Shown one piece after another: positions 10,501 to 40,207 of a DNA stretch of 64,000 nucleotides. Below the pieces are notes generated by a model. The model had not been told where the DNA came from. It searched no databases and saw only the letters and a list, made by a program, of their open reading frames with translations. Numbering within the stretch: position 1 is the stretch's first letter; every line of letters starts with the position of its first letter. A program made the translations under genes and the position numbers. The DNA is from Chiridota heheva (taxonomy: Eukaryota; Echinodermata; Holothuroidea; Apodida; Chiridotidae): the NCBI GenBank assembly GCA_020152595.1, contig JAIGNY010003176.1, forward strand, positions 238,501 through 302,500, read 5' to 3'.

Positions 10501-13500
10501 CAACTCCCAGTCCATCACAGGTCAACTCCCAGTCCATCACAGGTCAACTCCCAGTCCATCACAGGTCAACTCCCCAGTCTATCATCACAGGTCAACTCCC
10601 CAGTCTATCACAGGTCAACTCCCCAGTCATCACAGGTCAACTCCCCAGTCCATCACAGGTCAACTCCCCAGTCCATCACAGGTCAACTCCCCAGTCCATC
10701 ACAGGTCAACTCCCCAGTCCATCACAGGTCAACTCCCCAGTCCATCACAGGTCAACTCCCCAGTCCATCACAAGTCACTCCCCAGTCCATTACAAGTCAA
10801 CTCTCCAGTCCATCACAGGTCAACTCCCCAGTCCATCACAGGTCAACTCCCCAGTCCATCACAGGTCAACTCCCCAGTCCATCACAGGTCAACTCCCCAG
10901 TCATCACAGGTCAACTCCCCAGTCCATTACAGGTCAACTCCCCAGTCATCACAGGTCAACTCCCCAGTCCATCACAGGTCAACTCCCCAGTCCATCACAG
11001 GCCAACTCCCCAGTCCATCACAGGTCAACTCCCCAGTCCATCACAGGTCAACTCCTCAGTCCATCACAGGTCAACTCCCCAGTCCATCACAGGTCAACTC
11101 CCCAGTCCATCACAGGTCAACTCCCCAGTCCATCACAGGTCTACTCCCCAGTCCATCACAGGTCAACTCCCCAGTCCATCACAGGTCAACTCCCAGTCCA
11201 TCACAGGTCAACTCCCCAGTCCATCACAGGTCAAGTCCATCACAGGTCAACTCAGTCCATCACAGGTCAACTCCCCAGTCCATCACAGGTCAACTCCCCA
11301 GTCCATCACAGGTCAACTCCCCAGTCCATCACAGGTCAACTCCCCAGTCCATCACAGGTCAACTCCCCAGTAGTGTTGGTACTCATTTTAAAGCTGATAA
11401 AAGCTCTTTTAATTTGAATATCATGTTTAAATATTATATTAAAATTGATGAATTTTCTTCTTCTTCTTCCAAAGCAACATGACGGGTGTAAGCGAAGAAT
11501 CTCTCAAGGAGTTCAGCATGATGTTCAAGTAAGGACCCATTTATATTTGTGCATTCTTTTCACATTTAAGGTATATGGAAAGGTAGCAACAACATGAGCG
11601 TAATATACTTTTTAAAACCATGGAAACAGCAAATATTTGCACCAAAATTGGTTTAAAGTTGTCCATTTTAAAGCATTTTAAAACTAGGAGATGTAGAAAA
11701 TTGCTTATGTTAGTAGATTTTGTAGTAGAAAGCAATTTAAAAACCTTTGATATTTAAACTTTAAGGAAAGAATTGCATTAAAGGAATATTCCCATGTTTT
11801 TTCGTAACCTTTCATAAGAAAGAGGAAAATTTTAGAAACAATTTAGCACAAAAATCATTTTGATACGTTTTTCCTACCAGGAGATATTCAAATTTTAATG
11901 TTAACAAAAAATGCCAATAAACGAATACAGAATAGGAAAAGGCTCAGTATGACATCACAACAACACATTCTCCCACAAAGTTTATGTATTTTATTAAAAT
12001 CTATCATCCCTTTAAAAAACAAAACTTGCTAGAAAAAGAAAATGATGAAAGTTCGGTGTTTACATACATTGCCAAATACACTCTACTTTAATAATTTTGG
12101 AAAATTGTTTCTAATCTTACAGAAACAACCAATTAACATTCAAAGAAATACATCTACATTTGCAATGGAATTGTCTCATGACATCATCAAACTTCACGAA
12201 TTCACCATACTGTACAAAAACTTTCAAATGCAATTGGAAAATCTGTAAAAATCCATATGTCCTGAACGGAATATGATATTAACTTGATTTTTGTACCAAA
12301 TTGGCTCTAGAAGTGGCGTTCTTTGAAACAAAATTTTACAAAATTCCATGGGAATATTCCTTTAAAGAATTTTAGCTGTATTAATTTTGATGCATCATTA
12401 CTTTTGCTTATTCTGAAACTTTTTTTACAAACTTCAATTTGTCATAGCTTAAAAACTATAAGTGCTATTGTGTCCATTAAAAGTCTGTTCTGCATATCTA
12501 TTAATGAAACTTTTGTGGAAGGTGGAAAACTGGTGATTAGATTTGAGTGTCTGACATGATTTCAAGTTTAATGTTCTGTTTTTACTAATATATATTGTTT
12601 TCTGTTTAGATAGTTTTTGGATATATTCAAATAATTTGGAAATTCAAAATGTAGTTTTGCTAAAATTGACTCTGAAGTTCAATAAAAAACAGGATTTACA
12701 TAAGACAATGCTGTAGGCACCCAGACATACAACACAAATTTACATTTTTATAATGATGCCTGAAAATTCAAATGGTATAACAGTTTTGAAATTATTTTTG
12801 GCAAACATTTGTGAAAATTCATGATTTTGAAGACATTTAAAAGCTAGTTATTTTATACTTAAGACCATTACAAACATTTCTTTAATAGGTGTGTTCTAGT
12901 GTTCATAGAAACTATTTGATTTCATAACCCAGAGTGCATTTTATTTTTAGCAATTGTCGGCCATTTTTATGATAGTATTTTTCTGAATTTCCTCCTCTTA
13001 GGCACTTTGACAAAGACCACAGTGGAAAGCTGGACCATCAAGAATTCAAATCTTGTCTGCGGTCCCTGGGATACGATCTACCTATGGTGGAAGAAGGCCA
13101 AGACGAACCAGAATTTTTGGCAATCCTCGATGCTGTGGACCCCAACAGGTTTGTAAAACTGTATACATTACGCCAAATCCTTGCTACAAATTTTTACTCC
13201 CGCAAGAACCTCCATTTCGGCAGGTATAACTTTTAGACTCTGCTAGAAGCAATTAAGGAACCCACCACAGATAGTTCAGTGATTTTACGCATCAGTAATT
13301 ACACTCCTAATCATCTATATGCACACAATGGAACTTATTGTGAAGGCCCAGGTATTCTTGTGGATTTGGTTACTGCAGGGCCAAATCATGCATGTAATGT
13401 TGGGCTGAGGATTCATTTAAACTTTGAAAAGGATTGAACACTCTGGTGAGTTTGGATGCATTGGACTGAAAATTTATAGCCAAAGTTATTCATCATTAGA

Positions 13501-16236
13501 AATGTTCTAGCCAGTCCATGTTGCATGTGACATTTTGCTTTTGTAAGTTTAATACTGAAAAATTTTGCTGCAAAATGTTGGATTTGTTGATGCGAGTGTT
13601 TCAAACACTCGCTGGAAGATCTAGTCATCAAATAAGATTCATTACTGACTGCTGTTATCCTCTTGCCAACTTACTTAGTGAAGGGGGTATAGCATCTTTA
13701 CTATCCTTCCGTCCATCCACATGCATTTTTCATTTAGTGGGAACAAGATTTTTGCCCTTGGAAGGGAATTCCAACTATTTTTGTGTCTGGCTTGAAGGAA
13801 ATTTTTATGTAATGGAAACTTGCCTCAAAAGAACTTACAAAATTGCATTTGTGACATGAATAACAATTAAAATATATGTGATTGGCATGAATAAAAAGTC
13901 AACCAATACAGCCTCTCGCTTGGTGCCCATTGTATATATAAAGTTATGTCTCCACGATGTTTCTACACTTGTGGCAAACCTCAAGTGTCACTGATTATCA
14001 ACAGCCACCATTTAACAGGTCTAGTTTGAGCCAAAAGCAAAATGTTTTTTTCACTGCTGCTTTTTAATATTTTCCGGCACCAGTTGTACATTTTTGGCCA
14101 TGGATTCCCTCCGTATGTATCCGCTACTCCCGAATGTTGTTTGTCTGCCGTTGCACATCCCACAACTGATTTCAAAAATAATTTATTTGAAAAGCACATG
14201 CATTTATTCCTTCTTGCAACATTTATTTGGGCTTTCTCAACATATACAGAATAATAAACAATACATTTTTTTTATATTTATATTAATTTTTAAAAAGGGA
14301 GGAAAGCTAGGGGGAACTCATGAAAGTTAGGTAATCTTGTAACGTGAGTTCACCCTTTACAAAGATAATAATTAGCTACCACCAAAAAAAAAATTGAATA
14401 TATGATATATAGGATGAAATAATATAGGACAAAAAAAGGAGTGAAAGAAGGGGCACAACATAAACACACTATTTAGTACAACACAAATCAGAGTAGCGAG
14501 ATGAAGATAAAAAGAGTTTTCAGATTTTGTGCTTTGAATAGAAATAGTGAGAGAATTCCATTGTTTAGGGCCATTGCAAAGAACCGTATATTCCAAAATT
14601 AATATTTGTATATTCCAAAAGTATTTATTATACATGTATTTCAAAATTGATATACGTATATTCCAAAATTATTATACATGTATTCCAGAATTATTATGCG
14701 TATATTCCTTCTTGTTTCCAGAGATGGCTATGTGTCGCTTCAGGAGTACATGGGATTCATGATCAGCAAGGAAACAGAAAACGTCTCCTCCAGAGATGAG
14801 ATCGAGAAAGCATTCCTGGCTCTCTCCGCGGAAGGGAAGCCATTTGTCATACGCCAGGAATTGTATGCGGTAAGTCTTTCTTTTATTTGCATTTTGTTAA
14901 GTCTAGTCTCCTTTTCCCGCGATTATTCTAAGCGGTTTGTTCAATTTTCACACAATCAGAAGAATCATTAATTACTCCTTTTAGGTATGGCAGACAGGAA
15001 TATTTTACCATAGTTTCATTCTGTTTTACATACAATACTGTACTGTTTTATGACTACCTTATCCTTCATGCTAAGTAGTTTATTTTCACTTTGTAAGTCT
15101 AGAAACTCAAGCTTGTCGCTACCTGCCTTTTGCAATTATATTGATTTGATCTTGATGTTGAAAATCACAATGCATCCAGAAATAATGATACCAGACATCT
15201 GAATAAGCTAAAGCATCTTTTGCCCCACTTTGTATTTTCTGTATAATCTCCTTTGTTGTACAAGCGTATATTTTATTATATTGTGATTTGTTATGTTAAC
15301 TTTTAAAGAGAAGTGATCACAGTCTATTATATACGTGTGTATATAATATATATTTGAGAAAACATTAAACGAATATTCCCGTAGATTTTCATTTTTTATA
15401 TATGATAGAGAACATTTGTAGAAACAAAGTGGTGAAAAATCTATGTTAATATCTTATTCTGTTTAAAAGTTCTAACAATTTAAAGAGTAGAAAATTGTTC
15501 TTAACAACACCTCGTACAGTATGTCCTTCAGCTTGGTGATGTCATCAAGGCAATTCCAGCACAGTTATGTAGTTTTTATCAATTTGTTCACACTTTTTTT
15601 ACATGATCGAACAGCATTTCTGGTTCATAATAGAGATAGCTTTAAGACTTTTGTTTTTTTCTTGGTGTACATCACATTTACAATGATAAAAAAATCCAAA
15701 TCATTTTTAAAGAAATACAGAAGACACTTTGTTGAAATTTTTTCTATGACATCACAGATGTTGCCAATCAGTCACTTTTGTCCAGTTCAAATGAAATTTG
15801 TCTCTATCATATATGAAAAAATGAAAATCCATGGGAATATTCCTTTAAACCATTAATCCTTTAAACCATTAACAAAAAAAAAAGGACTGGTTGCTTCAAA
15901 ATGGAATACTGTAGCGTTTTTCATGTGGGTTTTTATGAAAGAGGACAAACACAGAAAAAAATGGTGAAAAAATCATGTTGATATCTTTTTCCATTTAATA
16001 GTTGTCATATTTGAATGCTCTCAATATGATAAGTCAGTTCCCACTGTAGTTCTACGAATTAATATTAGCTATTATTTTTTGAAGCTCTTGAATATTTTGT
16101 CTTTTTTCAGAACATGCCAACAAACCTGGCGGAGTATTGCATCCTCAATATGGTACCCTACAGAGACAGCAAGGGACGAGAGGTCCCGCACGCCCTCGAT
16201 TACGTCGAATTTGTCAACCGTATATTCCAAAATTAA
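1529..16236 (+). CDS. SPTAN1: Alpha-spectrin, non-erythroid type: last ten coding exons (C-terminal spectrin repeats and EF-hand domain)
   Basis: Alpha-spectrin pairs with beta-spectrin to form the submembrane cytoskeletal lattice; this C-terminal end forms the calmodulin-like domain near the actin-binding end of beta. Exons: 1529-1644, 3102-3217, 4082-4258, 7436-7490, 8235-8328, 9254-9355, 11475-11528, 13002-13148, 14722-14869, 16111-16236, all with AG/GT borders and matching phases. Clear landmarks are [52 protein letters not shown] and the stop after RIFQN. Two canonical calcium loops are visible, [12 protein letters not shown] (exon 8) and [12 protein letters not shown] (spanning exons 8-9); the last pair of EF hands is degenerate, as usual. 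The 1529 exon is 116 nt where 117 are expected (one C missing after codon 5), and the 8235 exon is 94 nt where 95 are expected (one G missing at about 8291). Both read cleanly otherwise, so consensus error is more likely than gene death. The 5' part of the gene lies left of the window. Confidence 0.95.
3252..3541. repeat. Minisatellite, 41-bp unit, about 7 copies
   Basis: Seven near-identical units of about 41 bp built on AAGCTACCTCACGCTGTAG and TATCACTAGATGTACTAAAA. The array begins about 35 bp inside the intron that follows the 3102-3217 spectrin exon. Units differ by single substitutions, so it is a young array. Confidence 0.93.
3905..4081 (+). repeat. Duplicated copies of a splice-acceptor segment upstream of a spectrin exon
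   Basis: The real acceptor before the 4082 exon reads ...TGTGTTATAG then GTACACCTGG. Near-copies lie just upstream, at about 3914-3936 (TTGTTGTAGGTACACCTGGG) and about 4018-4035 (TGTTATAGGTACACTTG). The last two sit in a direct repeat of about 55 bp that shares TATGTGTTTTCATTATGTTT. Another copy lies downstream at about 4718-4743. A TTG/TTA-rich microsatellite (3945-4010) separates them. Only the 4082 copy continues into spectrin coding sequence. Confidence 0.7.
4764..5101. mobile_element. Tc1/mariner-type MITE with long perfect terminal inverted repeats
   Basis: The left end CCGTATTTTCTCTAATAAAC (from 4766) is the exact reverse complement of the right end GTTTATTAGAGAAAATACGG (to 5099), followed inside by GCC/GGC. 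The element is flanked by TA on both sides, the target duplication expected for Tc1/mariner-type transposons. It is about 335 bp with no coding capacity. The repeats continue inward as C-rich and G-rich arms, so the two ends can pair. Confidence 0.88.
5534..5965. mobile_element. Non-autonomous DNA transposon-like repeat, copy 1 (second copy at 49795-50230)
   Basis: A stretch of about 430 bp is shared, at a level easily seen by eye, with a PIGK intron at 49795-50230 in the same orientation. Inside it GTAACTAAGTGGGGCAAA (5600-5617) is an inverted repeat of TTTGCCCCACCTAGTTAC (5927-5944). Similarity extends outside these arms on both sides (for example GATGATTGACAGCTTTTTCA), so the real ends lie further out or one element sits in another. 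Confidence 0.75.
6264..6500 (+). mobile_element. tRNA-derived SINE-like repeat
   Basis: The head carries box-A-like GGTGCAGTGGTTAAGG and box-B-like GGGTTTGATTCC about 45 bp apart, as in polymerase III SINEs. The body (GTCCTTGAGCAAGACATTAC and on) is non-coding. The head of a related copy is found reversed at 50945-51035 with the same AGGAGTCATGCTC and GAAAGGTACC segments. Confidence 0.72.
6590..7205. repeat. Degenerate tandem repeat rich in TTGAATTGATTTGACC
   Basis: Imperfect repetition of blocks such as CATAATTGTTCTGACCATTG, GACTTGATGACAG and TTGATTTGACCACTG with a higher-order spacing near 120-130 bp. No coding content. It fills most of the rest of the intron before the 7436 spectrin exon. 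Confidence 0.75.
7555..8175. repeat. Five-copy tandem repeat of 131-139 bp with a (GT)n tract in each unit
   Basis: The anchor CCTATACATTTGAGGACTC occurs at about 7579, 7710, 7843, 7982 and 8121. Spacings are 131, 133, 139 and 139 bp. Much of the length difference comes from the GT tract at the start of each unit, which is longer in the later copies. Confidence 0.9.
9736..11371. repeat. Large minisatellite, 22-bp unit, roughly 70 or more copies
   Basis: A 1.6-kb array of CCCAGTCCATCACAGGTCAA plus CT, with shorter units (20-21 bp) scattered in it and rare variants such as TCATCACAGGTC. It sits inside a spectrin intron about 100 bp before the 11475 exon. Open frames across it are by-products of the repeat. 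Each unit contains AGGTCA. Confidence 0.97.
11782..12361. mobile_element. TTAA-flanked MITE, AGGAATATTCCCATG family, copy 1
   Basis: The left end AGGAATATTCCCATG (11782-11796) is the reverse complement of the right end CATGGGAATATTCCT (12347-12361). Both sides are flanked by TTAA (11778-11781 and 12362-12365). It is 580 bp with no transposase. TTAA duplications are characteristic of piggyBac and Kolobok superfamilies; the AGG terminus looks more like Kolobok, but that is inference. Related copies lie at 15369, 30325, 44375 and 52110. Confidence 0.88.
14380..14600 (-). mobile_element. LINE 3' tail relic
   Basis: On the minus strand the translation contains [13 protein letters not shown] followed by a K-S segment, which matches the conserved W-N-S-L-P end of CR1/L2-type LINE polyproteins. 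Only this tail remains, in the intron between the 13002 and 14722 spectrin exons. Confidence 0.6.
14584..14716. repeat. Imperfect tandem repeat of TATATTCCAAAATTATTATA units
   Basis: Five to six degenerate units of about 20-28 bp run directly up to the acceptor of the 14722 spectrin exon. The first unit shares 22 identical bases with the last codons and stop of the gene at about 16215-16236 (core CCGTATATTCCAAAATTAAT). Confidence 0.8.
15369..15844. mobile_element. TTAA-flanked MITE, AGGAATATTCCCATG family, copy 2
   Basis: The left end ACGAATATTCCCGTAG and right end CATGGGAATATTCCT are flanked by TTAA at 15365-15368 and 15845-15848. It is about 476 bp. The interior shares blocks with copy 1 and with 30325-30660. 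A further fragment of the same family seems to lie at about 15900-16020. Confidence 0.82.
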
Positions 16237-16345
16237 TTTGCGCATATTCGTAATTGTTTGGTGTATCATTGATGTTAAACTAGCTCAACGGTAATGCTGA
16301 TAGTTTATCTATCCTTCAATAATCTTTTAGATATAATTGCTTTCA

Positions 16346-22781: not shown

Positions 22782-22808
22782 CTAAGAGCAGAAAGAATGA
22801 AGACGAAA
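22782..22808 (+). repeat. 27-bp segment, copy 2
   Basis: Identical to 18960-18986. A TATATAAAT sequence lies 25-32 bp upstream (22750-22758). The segment contains an ATG and is followed by GTAAAA, but no coding exon that joins in frame to the sialyltransferase could be supported here. Confidence 0.75.
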
Positions 22809-22809
22809 T

Positions 22810-24030
22810 GGTAAAAAGTATTGCAACTTATCGCGGAACCAGTTAGCCTATTACTTCTTAGCTTGCACTAACTTAAATAGGACTAACGTACGCTCAGGCT
22901 ACAGTAAATTTCCATGCTAGCCCATGCAAGTCTATACTCTTTTTCTTCTTCCGAATGAGTACCTTGCAGTACCAACTTTTAATACTGAAGTCTATCTTTA
23001 GGCCTAGCTTATTCGTTAGCCCTATTATTTCCAGAGATGTTTGAAAGACAAAGCAAAACAGCTCAGTTGACTTTAGAAGTTGAAGATTCCAATCTTGGAG
23101 CAATTATTTATAACGCTGAGTGAGGAAATAAGGAAGGTCATAGGCTTGGATTTGTTTGTTTCTCGAGTATCTTATTTGATATTTAACCGGAATTTGGGTC
23201 AGTTGCTGAACTGTGAGGTCCCAAATTAAATGGCACTCTTCCTCTTCAAAAGTTTAATGTATTGATAATGAAGCATTGAATTTCAATTAATTTTTTATCA
23301 GTATAAAGAAGGAATCATTTTGAAATGAATTTTTTTCAACTTCTATGAAAATGATTGAGATTAAGTTCTTATGGATGAAATGCGGATCTACCAATGCATG
23401 CCCATAGCCATGGGGAAGAGGGGGAGGTGGGGGTGGGGTTCGAGCAAAAACGAACCTTCTTTTGTTGAGAAGTGCCCTTTTAGCCCTTTGAAATCCAAAA
23501 GAATAATAAGCACCTGAAACTTCAAAGTTTGTTGCCCTTTTATATGAAAAAAAATGAACCTCTTCAAATTCCTGTCTACGGGTATGCAGTGCCACGTACA
23601 ACTGAAAATTGTGTTGCATGTAGTGCAATGGAGTGTGGATGATGTTCTAGATGGCTATGCAAAGGTGCACATTTTTTCTATGATAAAGTAGACTGGACCA
23701 GGTCAGGACAAATTTTTGGAGTGGATAAAAATGGTATATTAAATGTGCAAATGTATGATTGGTATCTTCAAGTGTGTGTGTACTTTTAGATTTGTAAAGT
23801 ATTATAACTTTAGATATGAAAAGAACTTCCAGATACTTTGATGAGAATAATCTTCCAAATTATATGACTTCTACTTCTATAATATACAGTACATCGACAC
23901 AATCACACATGACTTAAATTATACGGGTGGTTAAAGAATTAGAGAAAGGTAACAAAGTGAATAGGATAGGAGAAAAGAAACAGAATAAGATGAGCAGAAG
24001 AAATAAGACTCATCCAGCCACTTTTTTGTG
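22810..24030. other. Intergenic, no feature recognised
   Basis: AT-rich single-copy-looking sequence with one G-rich tract at about 23415-23440. Open frames here have no recognisable family features. Confidence 0.5.
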
Positions 24031-26781: not shown

Positions 26782-29700
26782 AGCATCGTACGGGTTGCTT
26801 CATGGAGTTTTCTTGCTCTCGTTGTTATTGTCGTTCTCATGATCAGCACAGAATACCTCAGCCTGAATATATCGTTTAAAATCATAGAAACTCAACCTGG
26901 AGACCTTCACGTTCAGCTGATATCGCAGCAGTTTGAGAGAAACAAGGAGTATAACTTGCGAAGAGCTATGCTAGAAAAAGAACAGATAAACTTACAGAAT
27001 GAATCAAAAGATGTCATAGATGCTCTGTCAGATATTCATCATGTGTACGTAAAGCGTGTAAGACAACCCGAGAAGAGCTCCAGTGATTTATCCCGAAAGT
27101 TATTTGTAGATAAAGCCAAGACCAAGATGGACGGAGATAGCCATGGGGGCGACAAACAACGGTTTGCTGCAGAGATGGTGGCTCAACCAAGATGGAACCT
27201 GACAGGGTACCGGTCCGTTTTGGATCCTAGTAAGGTATGGCAAAAGCAGGGGTCAGAGTGTTCCTATATTTCCTATATTTTCCTGTATTTTTTGAAACCT
27301 CAAATATTTTCCTATATTCATAAAAATTTCCTATATTTTTACCCTTTTGAAAAAAAATATGTTTTTTTCATGCATAATGCAGAAACTACAAATAAAATTA
27401 TGTTTTAACCATCAAAATTCAAAATTATTTATTATGAAAACTTAAAAATAAAGTAACATTTTAAGTTATTGTTGAAATACAATTGAATTTATTTTAGCGT
27501 TCCCTCTTTCAAGTGCAACCAATTGAACAAAAACAAATGAAAATCAGGCAAAATAGTACTTAAAATGAAATTTATATCATTCATTTTCATTTTAAAAACA
27601 AGCAATGAAGACCTTTGGACACTACACATATAATTTACATTTCAATATATCGATGAACCTTTTATTTTCCTATATTTTTTATTTAAAACCTCCTATATTC
27701 TCCTATATTTTGTGAAAAAAGACCCTATATTTTTTCCTATATTTTTGTCGATGGCCACTGTGACCCCTGCAAAAGCTGCTTGTGGTTTGTCCATTTTGTA
27801 AAGCTGAAATACAGTAACTGGTGTCATGGTGAATGGAATGTTTAGTGCAATGCACACAATGTCCATCAGTATGAAGGGCAGGGATGGCAACTTTACTGAC
27901 ATGAAAACCTGTAAACTAGAATTTCAGCCTTCTGTAGAGGACATACTTCTGCCCTCAGTTCATTTCCTATCCTTGACCCACCATTTTTATCCCCAAAACA
28001 TCCTTTTTTCACGTTTGATCTGTAGTGACCATTTGCATTCTGAACACTTTAGTATATTACCTTTTGACTGATTTCTTTAAGGCCATAGCATTGTTTTCAG
28101 TTTTATTCAGGCTATGCATCCATTGTTTGAGTTCTTTTCAGGGAAGATTTACATTCCATTATTTTCCATTCATGACAGAAATCAATTGTTTTGATATATT
28201 TGATACCAGAGACCCTGTAACTTGATTTTCTTTTGAGTCCAGAAAGTTGATTGTATGGATGTTCTTTACTGGCATGAATTAATTAATCAGCACATTCTAT
28301 TGGAAAGTTTCAACTTGGTCTTGATATCCCCACCCCTGCATTTCTGCCCTCCCCCTGTTTTCATATGTCCTTAAATTCAATCACTTCTTCCTTAAGCAGT
28401 TACAAAACCTCACAGCAAATTTAATCAAAATCCAATCATCAGTTATTGAGATAAACGTAACCTACATCCAACTTTGTTGGCTGAAGGTAACAGAGGTAAA
28501 GAAAAAGTTGGCAAGAAAGTACAAATAAATCTTGCATCGTTTTAAGGTCCTTGGACATGTACTGTGTTAATGTTGTCAAAAGCATTTAATTTGAGTATTC
28601 GGTCATCCAGGCATTTTTTCAAAGTTATATTTTTTACTCATGCTATGCTAACCAATAAGGATTGCTGATTTTGTTATAATTTATGCAGTTATTTCCTCTT
28701 ATCCAGGTGAATCAAATATTCTGAAAATTTGGCACATGTTGATCTTGATATTCTTTATAACATTAGGTGAAACTTTACTTCCATTGGCAGCTAGGAAATA
28801 AAGAATATTCTTGCCCAAAGTTGCCCATTTTACATTAATAGAAAGTAAGGTTTGTTTTCATCCAACAACTCAATTGCGACATCAGACCCAATACTTAAAT
28901 TCTAAGAGTAAGTTTTGAAACTAACATAATACATAATTATGCAGTTTGGGGATTGGGGCTGATGAAAGTTTTAGTGGTAGTAATGAAACAATCCTGATGC
29001 CCTATGGATTTGACATAAAGCTGTATTGCTGATAGACTCTGAGAAATACCATTTTAAAGAGAGAGACTCACCTCAGTGAAATTGTGTGATGAGAACATAT
29101 TTGTCGCTTCTGGTTGTGGTACCCACAAGATCCCTGTCTGTTTGTACAGTCAGACAGTGGCACATAATGTGTGTGTGTGAAGTTTCATGCACAGTGCATA
29201 AGGTTATAAGATTACGAGAAACTTTTTTTAGCGTGTTTGTCGGAAAAAAAGTTAAAAGGGAAATATTAGTAAGTCAATACTACAATAGTTATCACCAGAC
29301 ACAAAAAAAGATTTAAAAACCAAAATAAGTGATTCTACTGGGGCTCGAACTCACAACTCTTGGTCTAAAAAAGAACCAAGGTCTTATCACCCAAACTGCC
29401 TCTGCTATAACATGTGTTACTTTGAAAAAGAACCAAGGTCTTATCACCCAAACTGCCTCTGCTATAACATGTGTTACTTAGTACAGGCTTTTTGTTTAAT
29501 ATACTGTATACCATGAAATAAGAGCCAATGAATTATTCAGCAATTGGTTGAAATTTAGACCAATCAAACAATTTTGATTAAATTCTAAACATTGTGTCCA
29601 TATGACGATTTTGCCTTTTAAAGGATTAGTTTAGTGGTCCAGAAAGTCCATTTCATATGAAATATGACTTAAAGAGAAACAAAATGGTGAAGTATGCATT

Positions 29701-32700
29701 CAAAGATCTTATTCCGAGATAATTAAAGTTGAAAGGATTAGTTCAGGGGTCAAGCAAGTCCATCTCATATGAAAGAAGACTTTAAGAGAAGCAAAATGGT
29801 GAAGAAAGCATTCAAAGATCTTATTTGTTAAGAGATATTTAAGTTTAAAGTTTGGTATCATTTCTGTTGAAATGACTGAATTTAGACTAGTTGTGATATC
29901 ACAGCCTCAGACTCCTCAAAAACTTTATGCATTCTATCATTTTTTTGTCCCTGCGATTTTGTGGCTGAAAAACCTTTGGTTATGTCAGAAAAGTAGTAAA
30001 ACAAAATCTAGTAAGGGTAATTATATTTTACCACCTGAAGAAATTTGGAGGAAAAATAATTCAAATAGTAAAAAAGTTAAATAAATTTTCTTTAAAATAC
30101 ATTAACATTTGTTAAGAATTTGAGGATAAGGGTGCCAACCTTCCATAGTAGACTTACTACATTAGTCATATTAGTTTTTATACATTAGTCATTTCTAGAT
30201 TAGACAAAACTTTATACTTGAATATTTCCTTAACAGAATAAGATTTTTGTTTTTTCACTATTTTGTTTTTTTGAAGTCCTTTTCATATAAGATGGAACTT
30301 TCTTGACCACTGAACTAATCCGGTAATGGAATATTCCCATGATTTTTCATACAAATTTTTATGAAAGGCAATTAAAGAAATAAAATGGTAAAAAAACCTC
30401 GTCTATATCCCACAGTGTGTTGAAAAGTTATGTGCAGTAGTCTTTTTCAACAGTGTGATGTCATTGATGTACTTTCAAGACAATGTTTAGGTATTTCTTT
30501 GAAAATTAATGACCTCGTTTATAATAATAATAAGAAACATTTGTATTTAATTATTGAGAGGGGTATAACATGCACTTTGCATGAACATACTGTACCCATT
30601 TGTTTATGGATATGATATTTGTAATAAGAGAAAATTAAAAAGTTTTTTATGAAAATACAAAACACAAATTTGAAAGTTCATTGGGTGGCGAGGTATGCAT
30701 TTTGCAGAGGGCTTTGTAAATCTGATGAGGTTTCCCTGGGAGAGAGGGGGAGGGGTCACTTCATACAAAAGTGGTAGGGGTGTACTGCCCACCAACCTAA
30801 AAACATACCCTCAGTATGACATATTTTTGGTAAATGCAGTATGAAATTATACAATTTTAATGAAAAAGTCAATTTTGATACCTGCAGTATGAGTATTCAA
30901 CGATAATATTGTAAAAATGGACCAGCAGTACAAAATGAAGAGAGTACTAAAAGTGGTAGGGGTGTGCAGCCCACCAACTGAAAAACATACCCTCAGTATG
31001 ACATTTTTGGTAACTGCAGTATGTAATTACACAATTTTGATACCCGCAGTATAAAAGAAGTCCATTTTAATACCTGCAGTTTGAGTATTCAACGATAATA
31101 TTGTAAAAAATGGACCAGCAGTACAAAATGAAGAGAGCAAAACCTCATTTTTTGGGGACCTGCACTACGAAAATGATGAAAATACTTATGATATAGCTGT
31201 ATGTATATATTAATGTATATCAGATAGCGAAATAATTTTGGAGTTAAATCACATAGTGACACATCTGTCTGTACCTGTCAGCATTGTTGCCTTAATAATC
31301 ACATAACATTGCATGTACGGTACATCTGATTATTGCTGAAATAACAACATGTCCAACTTTTGTCTTTGCCAACGCCTTTAAATCTGCTTTGGCGATGATA
31401 TTTCTCACCGCGAATGTTGCAAACTGCAGATTGCTTGTCCACTAACGCTTCTTTGACTTTCGTCTTTGCTAATGCCCTGAAATCAGCTTTTTGCCAATGA
31501 GCGCTTTTTTACTGAGCCAGTGAGAAAATTGTCGTTTTCTGGGTGCTTCATCATTGATGGGATGCAACGTTTTTGGCTCATGCAGATGGATCAACCTTCT
31601 TTATTATCTTCTCATGATTTGTCTTCCTCCCATCCGTGGTGTAACGGGGATGAGGGGAGGACCATTGGAGCCCGAAAAAAGAAAAGCAATATAATTTTTT
31701 TTAGTTTTTGCTCTAAAAGTAACTGAAAAATGTCTGTTATACCACTGCTCCCTGTCCTTAATCAAACCATGTACAAAGGTTCTAACAAAATCTTGATAAT
31801 GATGTGTACTCATAATTATAATAATTTTTTGAATAAAACTGGAATTACATATTTTAGTTTGGCTTGCAAATAATCAATATTTACTTTGATGTGAACCTTT
31901 AATCTGTGATGCTCAGAAAGAAATACCTTAACAATCCCTTCCTAATACTTCCTGCAAAAACTAACCAAGAAAGCAAAATAACTTAATGTGATCCAAGGAC
32001 ACAAATAAAGATTGGCAAAACTGAGCTCTTTCCTACACTTTATTTTACATAGTATTTGGACTTGCAATGCAAGAATTGCTCCCTCGTTAGCAGTTCAGGG
32101 CATTTGCGCAGGTCCCACCTGGAGAGAAAATACACAATGCGGAATGTATCTTTCGCATGAACGATGCCCCAACACGTGGCTATTCAAACGACGTTGGGTT
32201 TTGGACCACGGTGCGGATGATTAGTTTCCAATCCGTCTTTGCAGTCAATGAAAAGCAAGCGTCTTTATTGGAGGGATTATCCAGGCCTAAGTATGTGGTG
32301 ATGTGGGTACCGAGTAGCGAACACACACCATCAGAATTCGATAGAAGCTCGGCGATTGGCAATTTGAAGGCATTGGCAAAGAGGTTCCGGAAGGACGGAA
32401 TAGGTTTTTTTCTGATGGCAGAACGGGAAATGGCATTGTGTGATGAAATTTATCAATATGAGACGGGATTGAATAGGTGGGTGTTTTACTTCCATCAAAT
32501 GATAACAATTGCAGATCTACCATAATAGTAATGCCTACAGACACCATTATTGGTTGGAACAATGTATAGAAATTCATGAAGAAAAAAAATGAAAATAAAA
32601 TAAATTAAGAATTTAAATTTCTTTCAGGGCTGTATCTTGAATCAATTTTGGGTGTTTTTGAAGTATTTTGCAGTAATTTTGCTTCTTCGTCTGCACATGT

Positions 32701-35700
32701 CCCTTTGGCAGGGGTACCAGCCAAGGCGCATGCAATTTCCCCTTTCCTCTGCCCCTTTTGATGGGGCTCATGTTTTCTTCAGCTGTTCAAGGCATACAGT
32801 TCTTCTAATGGCTTTGATGTAAATGTTGGTAGGTACTGCCTCAAGCTAGGGAGTTACATGGTAAACTTTGATTTAAATGACATTCAAGATGTGGGTTAAT
32901 TTGGAATTCAATTCCATCTCTGTGTGTGTAAGCATTACATTCAATGTTGGCTTGCTGTAATACAACTTGCCCGAAAAAGTTTGGTGGTTGGTAGAAAGGC
33001 AGTATCTTTTTTAAACAAGACAAATATTTTCTGTATATCTTTTAAACACACAAAAAGTAAAACTCTAGAATTTTAGACTATGTAAAGAAAATTAAGTATG
33101 TTGATTTTGTTGGGTCCATAAGGGTGCATCATTAAGAATTTTAGGCCCTTAGACCCCTCCAACCCGACACCCTCGATTTTCTAAAAATCAGGGGTAATCC
33201 ACACCATTCAACCCGAGAGACTTCACAATTCATTGACTAGCAACCAGCTTTTGTTACAACATACACAACACAGGGGAAATCTATACCTTCTTAACTGACA
33301 GCATCTCCATAGTCTATTCACAGTTCACTTGTTAGTAACCAGATACTGTTACTCTACACAATAGGTCATTCATCTGGGGCTCAAGCCACATAACTGCTGT
33401 TCAGTAAAGCGTATCAGATTATTCCTTGGCTGAGCCTAAATATCAGTATACATTATATGCTTGGGAGGACTTTGTACAAAACCCATAAATGTTTGATGGA
33501 CCATTTCTCCTAAAGATGGTTATTTCTCTGTCAGACAAACAATTTTTAAGGGTGACTTTGCAAATTATTTGACCTGTTAATTGTACTAATCCTGTCAAGT
33601 CATAATAAATTCATCCCTTTCTTGAAAGTGGCTGGACCTTGTTTGCCGAAGATGCGCCATTATCACTAGCTCTGGTCAGCTCCTGCGGTCTGGTTTAGGA
33701 GAAGAGATTGACACCAACAATGAGTGCATTTTAAGAATGAATGCTGCCCCTCTTTGCAGTACGAGAACGATATTGGCGAAAGGACAACAGTGCGAATGAT
33801 TTCATTTGTGGCGCTGTCTTATATCATTAAAAGTGAAAAGGAATTTTTAAGAGAAAACCGCACGCCATCTGTCATGATCGCCTGGTTACCAAAGAAATTA
33901 TCAGACCCTGATGGGAAATACATTCGAAAAGAATGGCTCAGCTTGCCAAGGAATATCCCAAAATAAAATGGCACTTTGTCAACGAGGAACAGATGAAGTT
34001 TGCGGATACGTTGTTTAAGCAGGAGACTGGTTTCTCTAGGTAGGTGTCAAGTTGCGGATGTGTCTGCTGCCATCATCTGTGCTCACTGTTCGTTAGCCAT
34101 CATCATCGTTCACTGTCTTCAGCTCTCATTCCAATTGACTGCCACTGTTAGTTCCATCATCAGCATTTACGTGTTAACCATGTCAGTAAAAGGTAGTACG
34201 TAACTCTTTCATCCTCATTAACTTTCATACATGCCCCAAGTAAAAAAAAAAATCCTGTGTGCCGACTTGTCCTCCTGGCAGAAAACTTGACTGGCGGTGT
34301 GCAACAAAATGTTGTGGTGCTGTCTTATGTCATTAAAAATGAAAATAAATTCTTTAGAGAAAACCTCACACCATCTGTCATGATTGTCTGGTTACCAAAG
34401 AAATTGTCGACCCTTGATGGGAAATACATCCGAAGGATGGATCAGCTTGCCAAGGAATATCCCAAAATAAAATGTTACTTTGTCAGTGAGGAACAGATGA
34501 AGTTTGCGGATACGTTGTTTAAGCAGGAGACTGGTTTCTCTAGGTACGTGTCAAGTTGCAGATGTGTCTGCTGCCATCATCTGTGCTCACTGTTCGTTCG
34601 CCATCATCATCGTTCACTGTCTTCAGCTCTCATTCCAATTAACTGCCACTGTTAGTTCCATCATCAGCACTTACGTGTTAACCATGTCAGTAAAATGTAA
34701 TACTTAACTCTTTCATCCTCATCAAATTTCTTACATTTCTCAAATTTTTAAAATAATTAATATTCCTGTGCACTGACTTCTTCTGCTGGCAGAGAACTTT
34801 GACTGTCGGCGTGCAACAATATTTCAGTGTGAGGTGTACTTTATAAGAACAAAGTCATACCCTATCATATTTTGTGTATCGTGGAGCCCAATGTGCTGAA
34901 CACCATGCTTGTAATTCACATTAAGGATGTTTTGATGGGTGTCAGAACTGGGAGGTTTAAGGGGACAATGTCCCCTCCCAAATTTTTTGTTGAAAAAGGT
35001 GTCTTATTTTCAGTGATGAAAAGAGCCCGTTCAAATATATACTGAGAAAGTTTCCCCTTTTAGGGAAAATTACTGAAAAGGGGTACAGAAATAACCATAT
35101 AAAAATATTTCTTGTTATTGTAGCAAAATGCCATCAGAGGCCCTATATTGTGACTTAATACCTTAGTAATGAAGCTCTCTTTTCTCTTCTCTTTACCTAC
35201 AGTAATTTAAATTCTTATTAGTAATAAAAACTGTAAGGAACTTTAGTACCTTACTACACAGAGTTGAAATTAATTGTAAAATTTCCCACGGTTCTAAATT
35301 AAGATGTCAAAAATCTTTCCACGAAAAAATGGTTGACCACACATGTTCCCTCTTTCACTATTCATCTCACAATAGCGTGGTGGGGACATGCTAAGAGCAA
35401 TGAGCCCAACCAATAACATGGCAGGGACATGCTAGGAGCAATGAGCCCAACCAATAACGTGGCAGGGACATGCTAAGAACAATGAGCTCAACCAATAACG
35501 TGGCAGGGACATGCTAAGAGCAATAAGCCCAACCAATAACATGGCAGGGATATGCTAAGAGCAATGAGCCTAACCAATAATGTGGCAGGGACATGCTAAG
35601 AGCAATGAGCCCAACCAATAACGTGGATGGGACATGCTAAGAGCTATGAGCCTAACCAATAACATGGCGGGGACATGCTTAGAGCAATGAGCCCAACCAA

Positions 35701-38700
35701 TAACATGGTGGGGACATGCTAAGAACAATGAGCCTAACCAATAACGTGGCGGGGACATGCTAAGAGCAATGAGCCCAACAATTAACGTGGCAGGGACATG
35801 CCAAGAGCAATGATCCCAGCCAATAACGTGGTGGGGACATGCTAGGAGCAATGAGCCCAACCAATAACGTGGCAGGGACATGCTAAGAGCAATGAGCCCA
35901 ACCAATAACGTGGTGGGGACATGCTAAGAGCAATGAACCCAACCAATAATGTGGCGGGAACATTCTTAGAGTAATGAGCCCAACATATTGTGGCCGAAAC
36001 CTTAAGCTTTTACCACATACTGCTGCTTACTCAAAAAATCGAACAAAATAAAAATCATTTACTCATTAATTTTTATATGAATTTTTTTTTTTCCCTCCAG
36101 CAAATTTCCATTTTTCCTGCAGTTAAAACTGTCGGAACTGAAGTAGTATTGTAGCTGCATGGTTTTAATTATTAGGGAAAAAAAATCCCCAAATGTTATG
36201 ACATCTGCAGTCATCAGTTGGTAGATCAAGAGGATTTCTCGGAGCACATTGGAAATAAGCTACTTACCCTTAGGTGTCGTAACATGCAGACACACTGTAT
36301 GGAACATGGGCAAGCTCCCCCTCTACTATTTCAGTATATGAAATTTGATTTCAGTATATGAAATTTGTTTTCAATATATGAATTTTTATTTCAGTGTATG
36401 AATTTTTTTACAGATAGTGCCACTCTGATGTAGTTTTTGGAAAGTTAATTGTCTTGTATCAGTATTCCACATAATACTGTTCACATTAAGGTGTGGGATT
36501 CCTGCACATATTTTGAAATTCTTGCTAATAAATAATTAAGGGGGAATTCCTGCAAAATCAAAATTTCAATAAAATGCCAAAAAATACCAAATCAAAGGCC
36601 AAAATTCCCCCTAAAGTCTCTTTTGGTATTTCTGTTAATTTTCCAAAAAGAATCTCCTCTTTTCATACTTCAAAATCCACTCCTCCCCCCGAAAAAAATT
36701 AAAATTACACAATGGGGTAAATCCCATCCAAATTTTGAACCTTTGTGTGAACACTGCCCCATACATGATCTTTCAAATTGTAAGTGTAGGGAAACTTGAG
36801 GCAATGTGAAGGGGGAGGGGGTGAGAGAATGACAAGAGGACATATCCCCCAAATTTTTGTTCAAAGGTAAGAATATGATCATGTCCTCTCCCAATATTTT
36901 CCTTCAAAAGTGAATTTGTACATTACTGTAAAGCATAAACATGTTAATGTCTGGAAAACAAGGAAATGTGCTATTAGCTACGTTCTGCTTGAGATTAAGA
37001 GACCGGCTGCAACAACTGATGAAGGACTCTTTCTCACTAGGAAAATGGCATCTCCCTCTTGTGAAACTTGTGGAAGCTAGCAGTGTAATAGCTGAAGTAG
37101 TTGATTTCCGTTAGGAATTTTCCCTCTTACCATTTCTATAAAACTCAGGATTTGTACTTTAAAGGAGTAGGCCTACCTAGACTGAAATGTGAGTGCGTAT
37201 TATTCTTGAGTCTCTAAAATATTCAAACCAGACTTGTAGTGTGTATGTTTCCATGAGTATAAGTACAATTGAAAATTAATGAGTACGAGTACGATTACAA
37301 GTCATTTTCACGAGTACAAGCAATTGAAGTTTGCATTGTACACTGAAGAAAAGTGTGAGTACATGGTCTTACTCTCATGAGTGCATGGTCTTACTCTCAT
37401 GAGTGCATGGTCTTACTCTCATGAGTGCATGGTCTTACTCTCACGAGTACATGGTCTTACTCTCATGAGTACATGGTCTTACTCTCATGAGTACATGGTC
37501 TTACTCTCATGAGTACATGGTCTTACTCTCATGAGTACATGGTCTTACTCTCATAATTACATGGTTTTACTCTCATGAGTACATGGTCTTACTCTCATGA
37601 GTACATGGTTTTACTCTCATGAGTACATGGTCTTACTCTCATGAGTACATGGTCTTACTCTCATGAGTACATGGTCTTACTCTCATGAGCACATGGTCTT
37701 ACTCTCATGAGTACATGGTCTTACTCTCATGAGTAGATGGTCTTACTCTCAGGAGTACATGGTCTTACTCTCATGAGTAAATGGTCTTACTCTCATGGGT
37801 ACAAATTCAAAATTGTGCTGAGTACAAAAATTGTACTGACACTACAAGTCTGATTCAAGCACACTTGTTTGATAAACTTTGAAGTGAATGTTCAGATCAA
37901 CCATACTATCATTTCTAATGAAAACAAGTATCAAACATTAGATCTGTATAATTTTCAACCGAAAGCGCCTTTAAGAATCTTTAAACCAGTATGATAATGG
38001 AGGCAACTGTGGAACCCTTGTTAAAACAATGTTTTTTTTGTCAGGAAGATTGGGGAGGGGTGCGGGGGTGGGATGCAGGGCATGGGGTGCAGGGTGTGGA
38101 GTGCAGGGGCGGGGTGCAGGTGGGTGGGTGACAGGGTGTGCCATATGTTCAATTTGAAATGTATTGTCTCATTTGAAATATACAGTACAATACCAATACC
38201 AAAAGATCCTAGAGATCATAAATTTGGAATTGAACAGGCTTCAATGGTCATTGTATTATTGTTTATTGCACCCAGGAAGGAGTCCGGTAGCTGGCTGACC
38301 ACAGGATGGTTCACCATGATACTGGCCCGAGCGGTCTGTGATGAAATTCATGTGTACGGTATGGTGGATGAAGAGTACTGCAGGTGAGTGGAAACATATG
38401 CATTGGTGGGGGAATTTGCCGCTGCTTGTAATAGTTAAAGCTCCATGTAAGATGCATGGTATATACATGTAAGATGCATGGGAATTTTCCTCCCCATCTC
38501 CCCCCATAATAGTTAAGCTCCATGTAAGATGTATGGTATACACACCTGGGAATGTTATGGATGACTGGTAGTGTCCATTTTGGGCGAGGATAGTAATGTG
38601 TCAATTTTGGGCAATATACCATTTCCCCATCAAAGTGGGAGAGGGAGGTGGGAAGGGGAGGTAGGGGAGGGAGATGGTGGGGAAAGGGAGGTGGGGAGGA

Positions 38701-40207
38701 GAAGTTTAGGGAGTTATTGCCCAAGGTTTCAATTACAGGACAAAGTTTTCAATAGCAAAAACATGGTAATCAAATTTTGTAGTTTTACATGTTTGTTTTT
38801 GTTGTGTATCAAGAGAGAGTAATTAATTACCATGGCATGGCCTTTTGACCTCACATTTTGTGCCATGATGCTAAATAATTGTATTAATTAGTCTTATACA
38901 TTTAGATGGGCTTTGAAGTATTCATAGATGGGCTTAGTCTATAGGGTATAATAATGTATACTGTAGAACTATGTATAAAATACTGTATAATTATATATTA
39001 ATTGTATACTTTACAATACCTTAGGGTATTAAAATACATAATTCAAGCTACATGACATACAAAATATTTGGTAAAGGCAGCTGTTTTTCTGGAGGGGAAA
39101 ATTTGTTAAATTTTGTGTATGATTTGTACTGTTTGCAGATTTTCCCTCCTGTAAACTTCCATCACATTTTAATTTGTACAAATCATAATGCATCTCATCA
39201 TTTTCCAAAAATGATCTAACAGTTTCTAATAATGGTAAGTATGATGTAGCTGTTGAAGTTTGTTCTTATTTCCTTTGAATTTGCCATCAAAATGGGACAA
39301 CAAATTTCAAAAAAAGTTTGTAAAAAATTGTAACAAGTTTGATTAAAAAAGTACTATGTATCAAAATCTGAGCAGATCAGTTTTTGAATTATGAAATAGC
39401 ACCTTTAGTTTTTGAACTATAGCTGATCAAAGCTTGATCAGTTTATAGCTGATCAAAGTTTGATCAGTTTTTAATTCATGCAAAATGTGTGATGTATGAC
39501 TGGGCAAATAATTCAAAATCTTTATATACTTCTTTAAATTTCTTTCCTAATTCTTAGTCACTAAAAAGAATGAAAAAGTATTCCTGCAAGAATCTTATTG
39601 GGGGGTATAGTAAAGAATCAAAAACATTGGGTCAGATTTTAGAGAGCTCTGATAGACAAAAAAAAAAAGCAAAGGTTTTACAAAAGGTTGCCCTGTAATA
39701 CATCACAAAATTTGCATAAAGTATTAAGATTAATGCCTGAGATTGAAAAAGTCTCTAAAATGGTCAACGTTGAACTGATTTTGAGGACATTTCTTGCTAC
39801 TATGATAGTTTGTAGTGGAGTTTGAAGAATTTAGTGTGTCTCCGCACAAGCATATAACTTGTAATGAAGATCTGTATTTTTAAATATCTGGCAGGGGAGG
39901 GGTGAGGGGGAGGAACTTTTCCCTCCTGCAAAGTTCTACAATATTGATTAAAGCTTAATCAAATACCATTTTATAAAACAATGTTTTGCCTTCATTTTGG
40001 CAGACACGGACATCCGAAAGCTGCTCCCTATCACTACTACGAGCCGGGAATAAGAGAGAGTGCGATTATTACAAATACAATGAGGGCGCCGTTAATGGGG
40101 GTCATCGATTTATGACGGAGAAGGCTGTATTTGCAAGGTGGGCCACACTAAAACCACAGATATATTTTCATCAGCCAGAGTGGGGATTGAACTACACAAC
40201 CAACTGA
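26782..40207 (+). CDS. ST6GALNAC-type alpha-2,6-sialyltransferase (GalNAc/ganglioside type), type II Golgi enzyme
   Basis: It transfers sialic acid from CMP-sialic acid in the Golgi, in this family to GalNAc of glycoproteins or gangliosides. Supported exons: 26782-27234 (anchor and stem), 32053-32476 (sialylmotif L), 38276-38383 (motif S), 40004-40207 (motifs III and VS). Phases 0, 2, 2 match. The first 25 codons form one hydrophobic helix (SIVRVASWSFLALVVIVVLM); the stem has N-glycosylation sequons NIS, NES and NLT. Motif L contains CKNCSLVSSSGHL and FRMNDAPTRGY; motif S contains SWLTTGWFTM and HVYGM; the last exon has PYHYYEPG and GHRFMTEKAVFARWA. Implied length is about 396 residues, longer than human members through the stem. 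One base is missing at about 32121 and one at about 40046-40048. The start codon is unresolved: ATG 26752 reads through in frame, but a strong acceptor precedes 26782, so an upstream first exon is likely. ST6GALNAC3, 5 and 6 are the nearest families I recognise. Confidence 0.9.
27248..27768. mobile_element. hAT-like MITE inserted just inside a splice donor
   Basis: Terminal repeats AGGGGTCAGAGTG (27248-27260) and CACTGTGACCCCT (27756-27768) differ at one position. Both are flanked by the 8-bp duplication GCAAAAGC (27240-27247 and 27769-27776), the length expected for hAT elements. The interior is AT-rich with many CCTATATTTT repeats. Insertion lies only 5 bases after the GT of the sialyltransferase stem exon. 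Confidence 0.88.
27777..29330. other. Sialyltransferase intron, nothing recognised
   Basis: AT-rich intron sequence without recognisable coding, RNA or repeat structure beyond short low-complexity tracts. Confidence 0.5.
29330..29485 (-). repeat. tRNA-like SINE head with a 57-bp tandem duplication
   Basis: On the minus strand the segment reads GTTTGGGTGATAAGACC then GTGAGTTCGAGCCCC, box-A- and box-B-like as in tRNA-derived SINEs. A 57-bp unit containing AAGAACCAAGGTCTTATCAC is present twice in tandem (about 29371-29427 and 29428-29484). Confidence 0.65.
29621..30322. mobile_element. Foldback MITE, GGATTAGTTCAGGGGTCAAG family, copy 1
   Basis: The left arm begins AAAGGATTAGTTTAGTGG and is partly repeated at about 29734. 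The right arm ends CACTGAACTAATCC (to 30322). The arms pair over about 150 bp, including CATATGAAA and AAATGGTGAA blocks. It has no coding capacity. The sequence ATTTCCTTAACAGAATAAG at about 30223-30242 corresponds to the TTAA site that is occupied by another transposon in the copy at 45339. Confidence 0.8.
30325..30660. mobile_element. AGGAATATTCCCATG-family MITE, right end truncated
   Basis: Begins GGAATATTCCCATGATTTTTCAT and shares interior blocks (AATAAAATGGTAAAAA, GTGTGATGTCATTGATG, GTATAACATGCACTTTGCATG) with the element at 44375-44899. The right inverted repeat is not seen. Confidence 0.7.
30767..31140. repeat. Direct repeat of 182 bp, two copies
   Basis: AAAAGTGGTAGGGGTGT starts at 30767 and again at 30949. 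Both copies continue through AAAACATACCCTCAGTATGA, ATACCTGCAGT, GTATTCAACGATAATATTGT and GGACCAGCAGTACAAAATGA. Confidence 0.88.
31375..31520. repeat. Short degenerate tandem duplication
   Basis: Two related blocks of about 75 bp contain TTTGTCTTTGCCAACGCC / TTCGTCTTTGCTAATGCC and AAATCTGCTTTGGCGATGA / AAATCAGCTTTTTGCCAATGA. No coding meaning seen. Confidence 0.5.
33629..34039 (+). CDS. Second, diverged sialylmotif-L exon of the sialyltransferase (possible mutually exclusive exon)
   Basis: This exon encodes the same part of the enzyme as 32053-32476. It has an acceptor at 33627-33628 and donor GTAGGT at 34040. It reads LDLVCRRCAIITSSGQLL, GLGEEIDTNNECILRMNAAP, YENDIGERTTVRMISF, then the second half ending LFKQETGFSR. 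It starts in phase 0 and ends in phase 2, exactly like 32053-32476, so either could be spliced between the stem exon and the motif-S exon. The two are clearly diverged, so the duplication is old. MNDAP is MNAAP here; human ST6GALNAC3 has MNNAP and a YEEDVG-like block, so this copy looks more ST6GALNAC3-like, while 32053-32476 is more ST6GALNAC5-like. Two single-base deletions are apparent (33759/33760 and about 33930). It could also be a dying exon. Confidence 0.75.
33808..34815 (+). repeat. Tandem segmental duplication, 504-bp period, two copies
   Basis: The 3' half of the second motif-L exon plus about 270 bp of following intron (about 33808-34311) is repeated at about 34312-34815. The exon ends fall at 34039 and 34543, and matching intron text (TGTCTGCTGCCATCATCTGT, GTTCACTGTCTTCAGCTCTC) follows each. 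Few differences, so it is recent compared with the exon duplication. Confidence 0.9.
34313..34543 (+). pseudogene. Truncated third copy of the sialylmotif-L exon (3' half only)
   Basis: Generated by the 504-bp tandem duplication. It encodes VVLSYVIKNENKFFRENL... down to LFKQETGFSR and keeps an open frame and donor GTACGT, but lacks the CxxC/motif-L half. The only acceptor-like site upstream (CCTCCTGGCAG at about 34283) would give the wrong phase for joining to either preceding exon. It is unlikely to be used in a functional message. Confidence 0.8.
35373..35990. repeat. Minisatellite, 41-bp unit, about 15 copies
   Basis: Units read GTGGCAGGGACATGCTAAGA, GCAATGAGCCCAACCAATAAC with few substitutions. 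It lies in the sialyltransferase intron before the motif-S exon. Long open frames on the minus strand are by-products. Confidence 0.95.
36331..36405. repeat. Short tandem repeat of TTTCAGTATATGAAATTTG
   Basis: Four imperfect copies of a 20-bp unit; each unit is itself partly self-complementary (TTTCAGTATATGAAA). Confidence 0.75.
37352..37802. repeat. Minisatellite, 22-bp unit, about 20 copies
   Basis: Units of GTACATGGTCTTACTCTCAT plus GA, very homogeneous, with a GTGCATGG variant confined to the first few copies. It is in the sialyltransferase intron about 470 bp before the motif-S exon. Confidence 0.95.
38045..38135 (+). repeat. G-rich repeat (GGGGTGCAGGG-like)
   Basis: G-rich runs (GGGGTGCGGGGGTGGG, GGGGTGCAGGGTG) about 150-230 bp upstream of the motif-S exon acceptor, on the sense strand. 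Several tracts of three or more G could fold as a quadruplex. A second purine/G-rich block follows the exon at 38637-38705. Confidence 0.6.

Follow-up and report, generated by a model that had tools for sequence, protein, structure and literature searches.

On the forward strand of a 64,000-nucleotide stretch of the Chiridota heheva genome (assembly GCA_020152595.1, contig JAIGNY010003176.1, positions 238,501 to 302,500; hereafter the window), we identified a predicted GT29 sialyltransferase gene composed of a single stem exon, two motif-L exons (A and B), a single motif-S exon and a single last exon. This is probably one gene in which the motif-L exon occurs in two versions alongside a truncated third copy (B′), and which is now decaying. 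As found, the locus would illustrate how a duplicated exon, or a merger of two genes, can be followed by decay; other members of its family are also broken or orphaned elsewhere in the genome.

Exon architecture and family identity

All exons lie on the forward strand. The stem exon (26784–27234, its start perhaps at 26782) encodes a transmembrane segment and the stem in an open frame that ends in phase 0 at the donor AAG/gtatgg (splice ends by eye). Exon A (32053–32476; acceptor acatag/TATTTG, donor AATAG/gtgggt) opens in one frame (32053–32118) and proceeds in another (32121–32477), with one frameshift near 32119–32121 that rules it out as a clean copy. Exon B (33629–34039; acceptor tgaaag/TGGCTG, donor TCTAG/gtaggt) carries frameshifts near 33752–33759 and 33928–33932, and is followed in tandem by B′ (34312–34543), a truncated copy of its 3′ half with an open frame and the donor TCTAG/gtacgt. 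The motif-S exon (38277–38384, or from 38276 by its acceptor) is open, and the last exon (approximately 40001–40207), which contains HYYEP and GGHRFMTEK, has one frameshift near 40055–40061. An earlier note on this DNA had described the two motif-L exons at these positions, which their Pfam matches and GT/AG ends bear out, and had raised the concern that exon B might be frameshifted; B is indeed broken, twice, but the note had missed the lesions in A and in the last exon, as well as B′.

We scanned the stem exon, the pieces of A and B, B′ and the S exon against Pfam, where the GT29 profile (PF00777) has a curated cut-off of 23 bits. Scores above it were obtained for the exon A piece at 32121–32477 (38.0 bits, expectation value E = 1.6e-9), the first exon B piece at 33629–33751 (35.9 bits, E = 7e-9) and the S exon (24.3 bits); the second exon B piece (33760–33927) remained below it at 13.5 bits, and neither B′ alone nor the stem exon gave a GT29 match. 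The E-values rule out chance similarity as the source of the GT29 signal. Motifs L and S were recognized by Pfam, and HYYEP and GGHRFMTEK, which we take to be motifs III and VS, were read by eye in the last exon and aligned with nine paralogs. Judged by these features, the gene belongs to the GT29 sialyltransferases. We presume that it is of the ST6GalNAc III–VI kind. It has its L, S and last exons in common with nine other loci of the genome, and differs in its two L exons and truncated third, and in the lesions of A, B and the last exon. The closest solved structures were ST6Gal1 for the exon A piece and ST8Sia3 for the S/III part, the former in agreement with the trees of PMC5811610, where ST6GalNAc3/4/5/6 stand beside ST6Gal.

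Searches of the window by tblastn (E up to 5) found no second stem, S or last exon, returning only short, weak matches (E 0.4 to 5), in keeping with the single stem and S exons of the earlier note. That note had also named a separate stem exon for B as a finding that would refute its model: none was seen between A and B by tblastn or by eye, nor was any other exon convincing among the open frames inspected there by eye, one hydrophobic stretch lying in the frame at 32604–32822. Splice signals and phases would let either A or B connect with the common stem and S exons, as had been proposed, and both exons do start in phase 0 and end in phase 2. However, the seven paralogous L exons that we compared have the same phases at both ends; the phase match is therefore the family default and provides no evidence for alternative use. 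Equal phases and a conserved motif are not in themselves proof of alternative splicing.

Age and constraint of the exon pair

The pair is old, as had been supposed: at the 143 columns compared, identity between A and B is 37.8%. Their true frames, examined over 140 and 132 codons with a few bases around the frameshifts omitted, contain no stop. Simulated neutral drift at 0.5 to 1.5 changes per site, by contrast, produced 5.5 to 8 stops on average, and no setting gave a stop-free outcome in more than 2 of 1000 runs. Old divergence combined with stop-free true frames indicates that A and B were functional for most of their history and that any loss is recent. By this measure, the two exons have been under selection for most of their time, whether in one gene or in two.

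The tandem duplication at 34312–34738 repeats 33806–34232 with 394 of 428 alignment columns identical. The part of the exon kept in B′ is its 3′ half alone, which reads as an open frame and lacks the second of exon B's frameshifts. The two copies are 91.8% identical in the exon and 94.3% in the intron; the exon is thus at least as diverged, which we counted for decay.

The history that we envisage would begin with A and B both functional and old, the locus decaying later. B and B′ would have died first, exon B being the part most likely dead. A transcript through either A or B would shift frame inside that exon, so that no full enzyme would result from the gene as assembled; if any enzyme is made, its likelier source would be the A-form, which combines the stem, A, S and last exons.

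Frameshifts against the assembly background

The gene carries 4 frameshifts in 1601 bp of coding sequence. Control genes from the same assembly have 5 in ~16.8 kb of coding sequence (lengths rounded), a rate approximately eightfold lower. For the whole gene of five exons, the probability of this count is P = 0.0015 at the point rate and 0.027 at the upper 97.5% limit of the control rate. The controls comprised three HSC70-like long exons (~4.9 kb, one frameshift), ten actin last exons of ~520 bp each (seven unbroken, three broken), the four alpha-spectrin exons of the window (zero frameshifts) and the L, S and last exons of nine paralogs (one frameshift, in C2015c; C-numbers denote contigs of the assembly). 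One of the unbroken actins carries a TAA, which we assigned to the edge of the match; two of the broken actins are sound apart from a single frameshift each, and the third (C3559:1581k) was judged from split matches alone. We dropped from the control set an HSP70 match on C2410 (many stops, pseudogene-like), short HSP70-family exons, two orphan L exons on C2015, and actins that have an intron-split last part or are merely actin-related.

Taken as a whole, the lesions appear to exceed the background, those of exon B weighing most. The alpha-spectrin gene of the same window is intact across its four exons, which we likewise counted for decay of the sialyltransferase gene. We infer that these lesions are genuine and were not introduced by assembly, and that exon B is unused.

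Related exons in the same genome

We searched the assembly (1.1 Gb, 3744 contigs) for relatives of each exon. Exon B gave 21 matches: 5 at the window locus, 5 that we presume, from their placement and weaker scores, to belong to other GT29 groups, and 11 related L exons. The S exon gave 10 matches (one at the window locus, 9 elsewhere) and the last exon 11 (two pieces at the window locus, 9 elsewhere), and the nine S loci coincide with the nine last-exon loci in contig, strand and order. Searches with A (8 matches) and with B, each scoring only the best candidates, revealed no second L exon at these nine paralogs, nor two L exons at any other locus.

Eight of the 11 related L exons are unbroken, and the other three, all on C2015, are frameshifted. 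No S or last exon was found with two of these three, a point that we counted for decay; the three broken exons, two of them orphans, indicate that L-exon relics do occur in this genome. The orphans lie at 1294 kb and 1369 kb of C2015, ~150 and 225 kb from a related three-exon gene and on the same strand. The eight unbroken exons include that of C261, which we had considered as a broken relative and rejected: its L exon (between roughly 575.2 kb and 569.5 kb) seems to be interrupted by an additional GT-AG intron of ~5.8 kb, which this paralog has apparently gained.

Origin of the pair and competing explanations

Evidence on the origin of the pair is divided. Within the family rows, leaving B′ aside, the best BLAST match of A is B and that of B is A. 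Across 13 rows, six residues are exclusive to A and B, against 13 for the sister pair C1822a/b and 5 for the next pair (this count excluded B′ and any column having over four gaps). Column identity is tied at 41% for A with C261, B with C618, and A with B. In a free tree, A falls nearer C261/C915/C1822 and B nearer C618/C996. When the exons were entered one at a time, with B′, C2015a and C2015b excluded, A grouped with C915/C261/C1822a/b (support 98/98) and B with C618/C996/C1867/C2156/C2015c (99/99). Approximately unbiased (AU) tests rejected no placement (p-AU 0.36 and 0.42 for A with B, 0.255 for A and 0.263 for B with the other's group), nor did they reject the S plus last exon with either group. 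The trees are thus compatible with exon duplication and with a merger of two genes alike.

A merger, which overlaps the other readings as an account of origin, would have joined two neighbouring genes, the first losing its S and last exons and the second its stem, so that B would be the relic of the second gene. The strong separation of A and B in the one-at-a-time trees speaks for it, as do the two C2015 L exons found with neither an S nor a last exon. We nevertheless regard it as rather unlikely, given that A and B as a pair, or either exon within the other's group, survive the AU tests, that the mutual best matches and six exclusive residues draw A and B together despite the tied identities with C261 and C618, and that no S or stem remnant was seen between them.

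Several observations weigh against the decay of the gene as a whole. In the A-form alone there are 2 lesions in 1190 bp (P = 0.05, or 0.20 at the upper limit); these could be assembly error, and it would be premature to regard the A-form as dead. Nonsense changes are absent from the examined stretches of A, B and B′, so that any inactivation could only be recent, and their lack fits assembly errors as well as very recent loss. The ratio of nonsynonymous to synonymous change (dN/dS) between B and B′ is 0.38 (p = 0.064), not significant but in the direction of constraint. Isolated indels occur in well-conserved genes elsewhere in the assembly: single frameshifts in conserved HSC70-like (C2902:695272-696914) and actin sequences (C3559:1565776-1566192, C1667:213837-214356) hint at indel errors. 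We found in the assembly no second haplotype copy of exon A and none of exon B apart from B′, and a locally poor consensus might yet be the source of the lesions.

Two further explanations deserve mention. The gene might be an ordinary one that works through exon A, with the frameshifts there and in the last exon being assembly errors and B and B′ inert intronic relics. The marginal excess of lesions in the A-form and the open frames of the S exon and stem would suit this account; it would require two independent errors in one gene, and exon A has a tryptophan in the G.RTT stretch of motif L where R or K stands in each of the other 12 of the 13 full L rows, leaving it a possibility to which we attach limited weight. 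Alternatively, A and B could be working mutually exclusive exons that yield two enzymes, which would require that each of the four frameshifts be an assembly error or a rare allele. Stop-free frames where several stops are expected, GT/AG ends on both exons, the six exclusive residues and the isolated indels elsewhere are consistent with such a switch. However, four lesions in one gene (two of them in exon B), the truncated copy B′ and the failure to find a second L exon at the paralogs make it very doubtful; a looser version, in which the two motif-L exons are, or until recently were, interchangeable parts of a functional gene that makes two enzymes differing in their donor/acceptor pockets, the frameshifts being errors or recent loss, is quite improbable. 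The working choice between two enzymes put forward in the earlier note is accordingly not sustained, as neither form is open as assembled, B carries two lesions and is followed by B′, and a second L exon was found at none of the nine paralogs. If such a choice were real, an internal exon switch over the donor-binding motif of a glycosyltransferase would be a novel means of broadening sialylation from a single locus.

Comparison with known systems

Mutually exclusive exon pairs can arise by tandem exon duplication. Like such pairs, A and B are homologous, equal in phase, adjacent and flanked by constant exons; unlike them, both are frame-broken as assembled, neither giving an open product (one lesion in A, two in B, one in the last exon). 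GCNT2 and UGT1A are glycosyltransferase genes in which alternative first exons carry the catalytic part. The window gene would likewise swap a binding part onto shared exons, with the difference that its pair is internal. With decaying pseudogenes it shares several frameshifts and a truncated tandem copy, but it has no nonsense change that we could see and has kept its splice sites, so that its loss could be very recent or polymorphic.

The earlier note knew of no animal sialyltransferase that works with such an exon pair, and the open-access literature that we searched likewise yielded no sialyltransferase with mutually exclusive or duplicated exons. The available portions of two reviews (PMC10225777 and PMC5811610) mention no such pair, and that of PMC6105653 contains nothing on alternative exons.

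Neighbouring features

A candidate first coding exon at 22797–22810 (forward strand), picked out by eye, consists of an ATG, three further codons and two bases, followed by gtaaaa; joining it to 26784 would possibly bring the start codon beside the transmembrane segment. Between exons A and B lies a copy of an abundant dispersed repeat of ~400 bp (33128–33526, forward strand); of 2974 first-look candidates 40 were scored, and 41 further matches have 84–92% identity. The last exons of the alpha-spectrin gene, covering the EF-hand region, lie upstream at window positions 11481–16238 on the forward strand and are intact. An Rfam scan of the window gave no match reaching the gathering score. A 265-amino-acid reverse transcriptase open frame (Pfam RVT_1) at 442–1236 on the forward strand is presumably part of a transposable element, and long tandem arrays are found at 9740–11371, 35370–35984, 37356–37803 and 56966–57873, with units of 46, 41, 22 and 48 bp, respectively.

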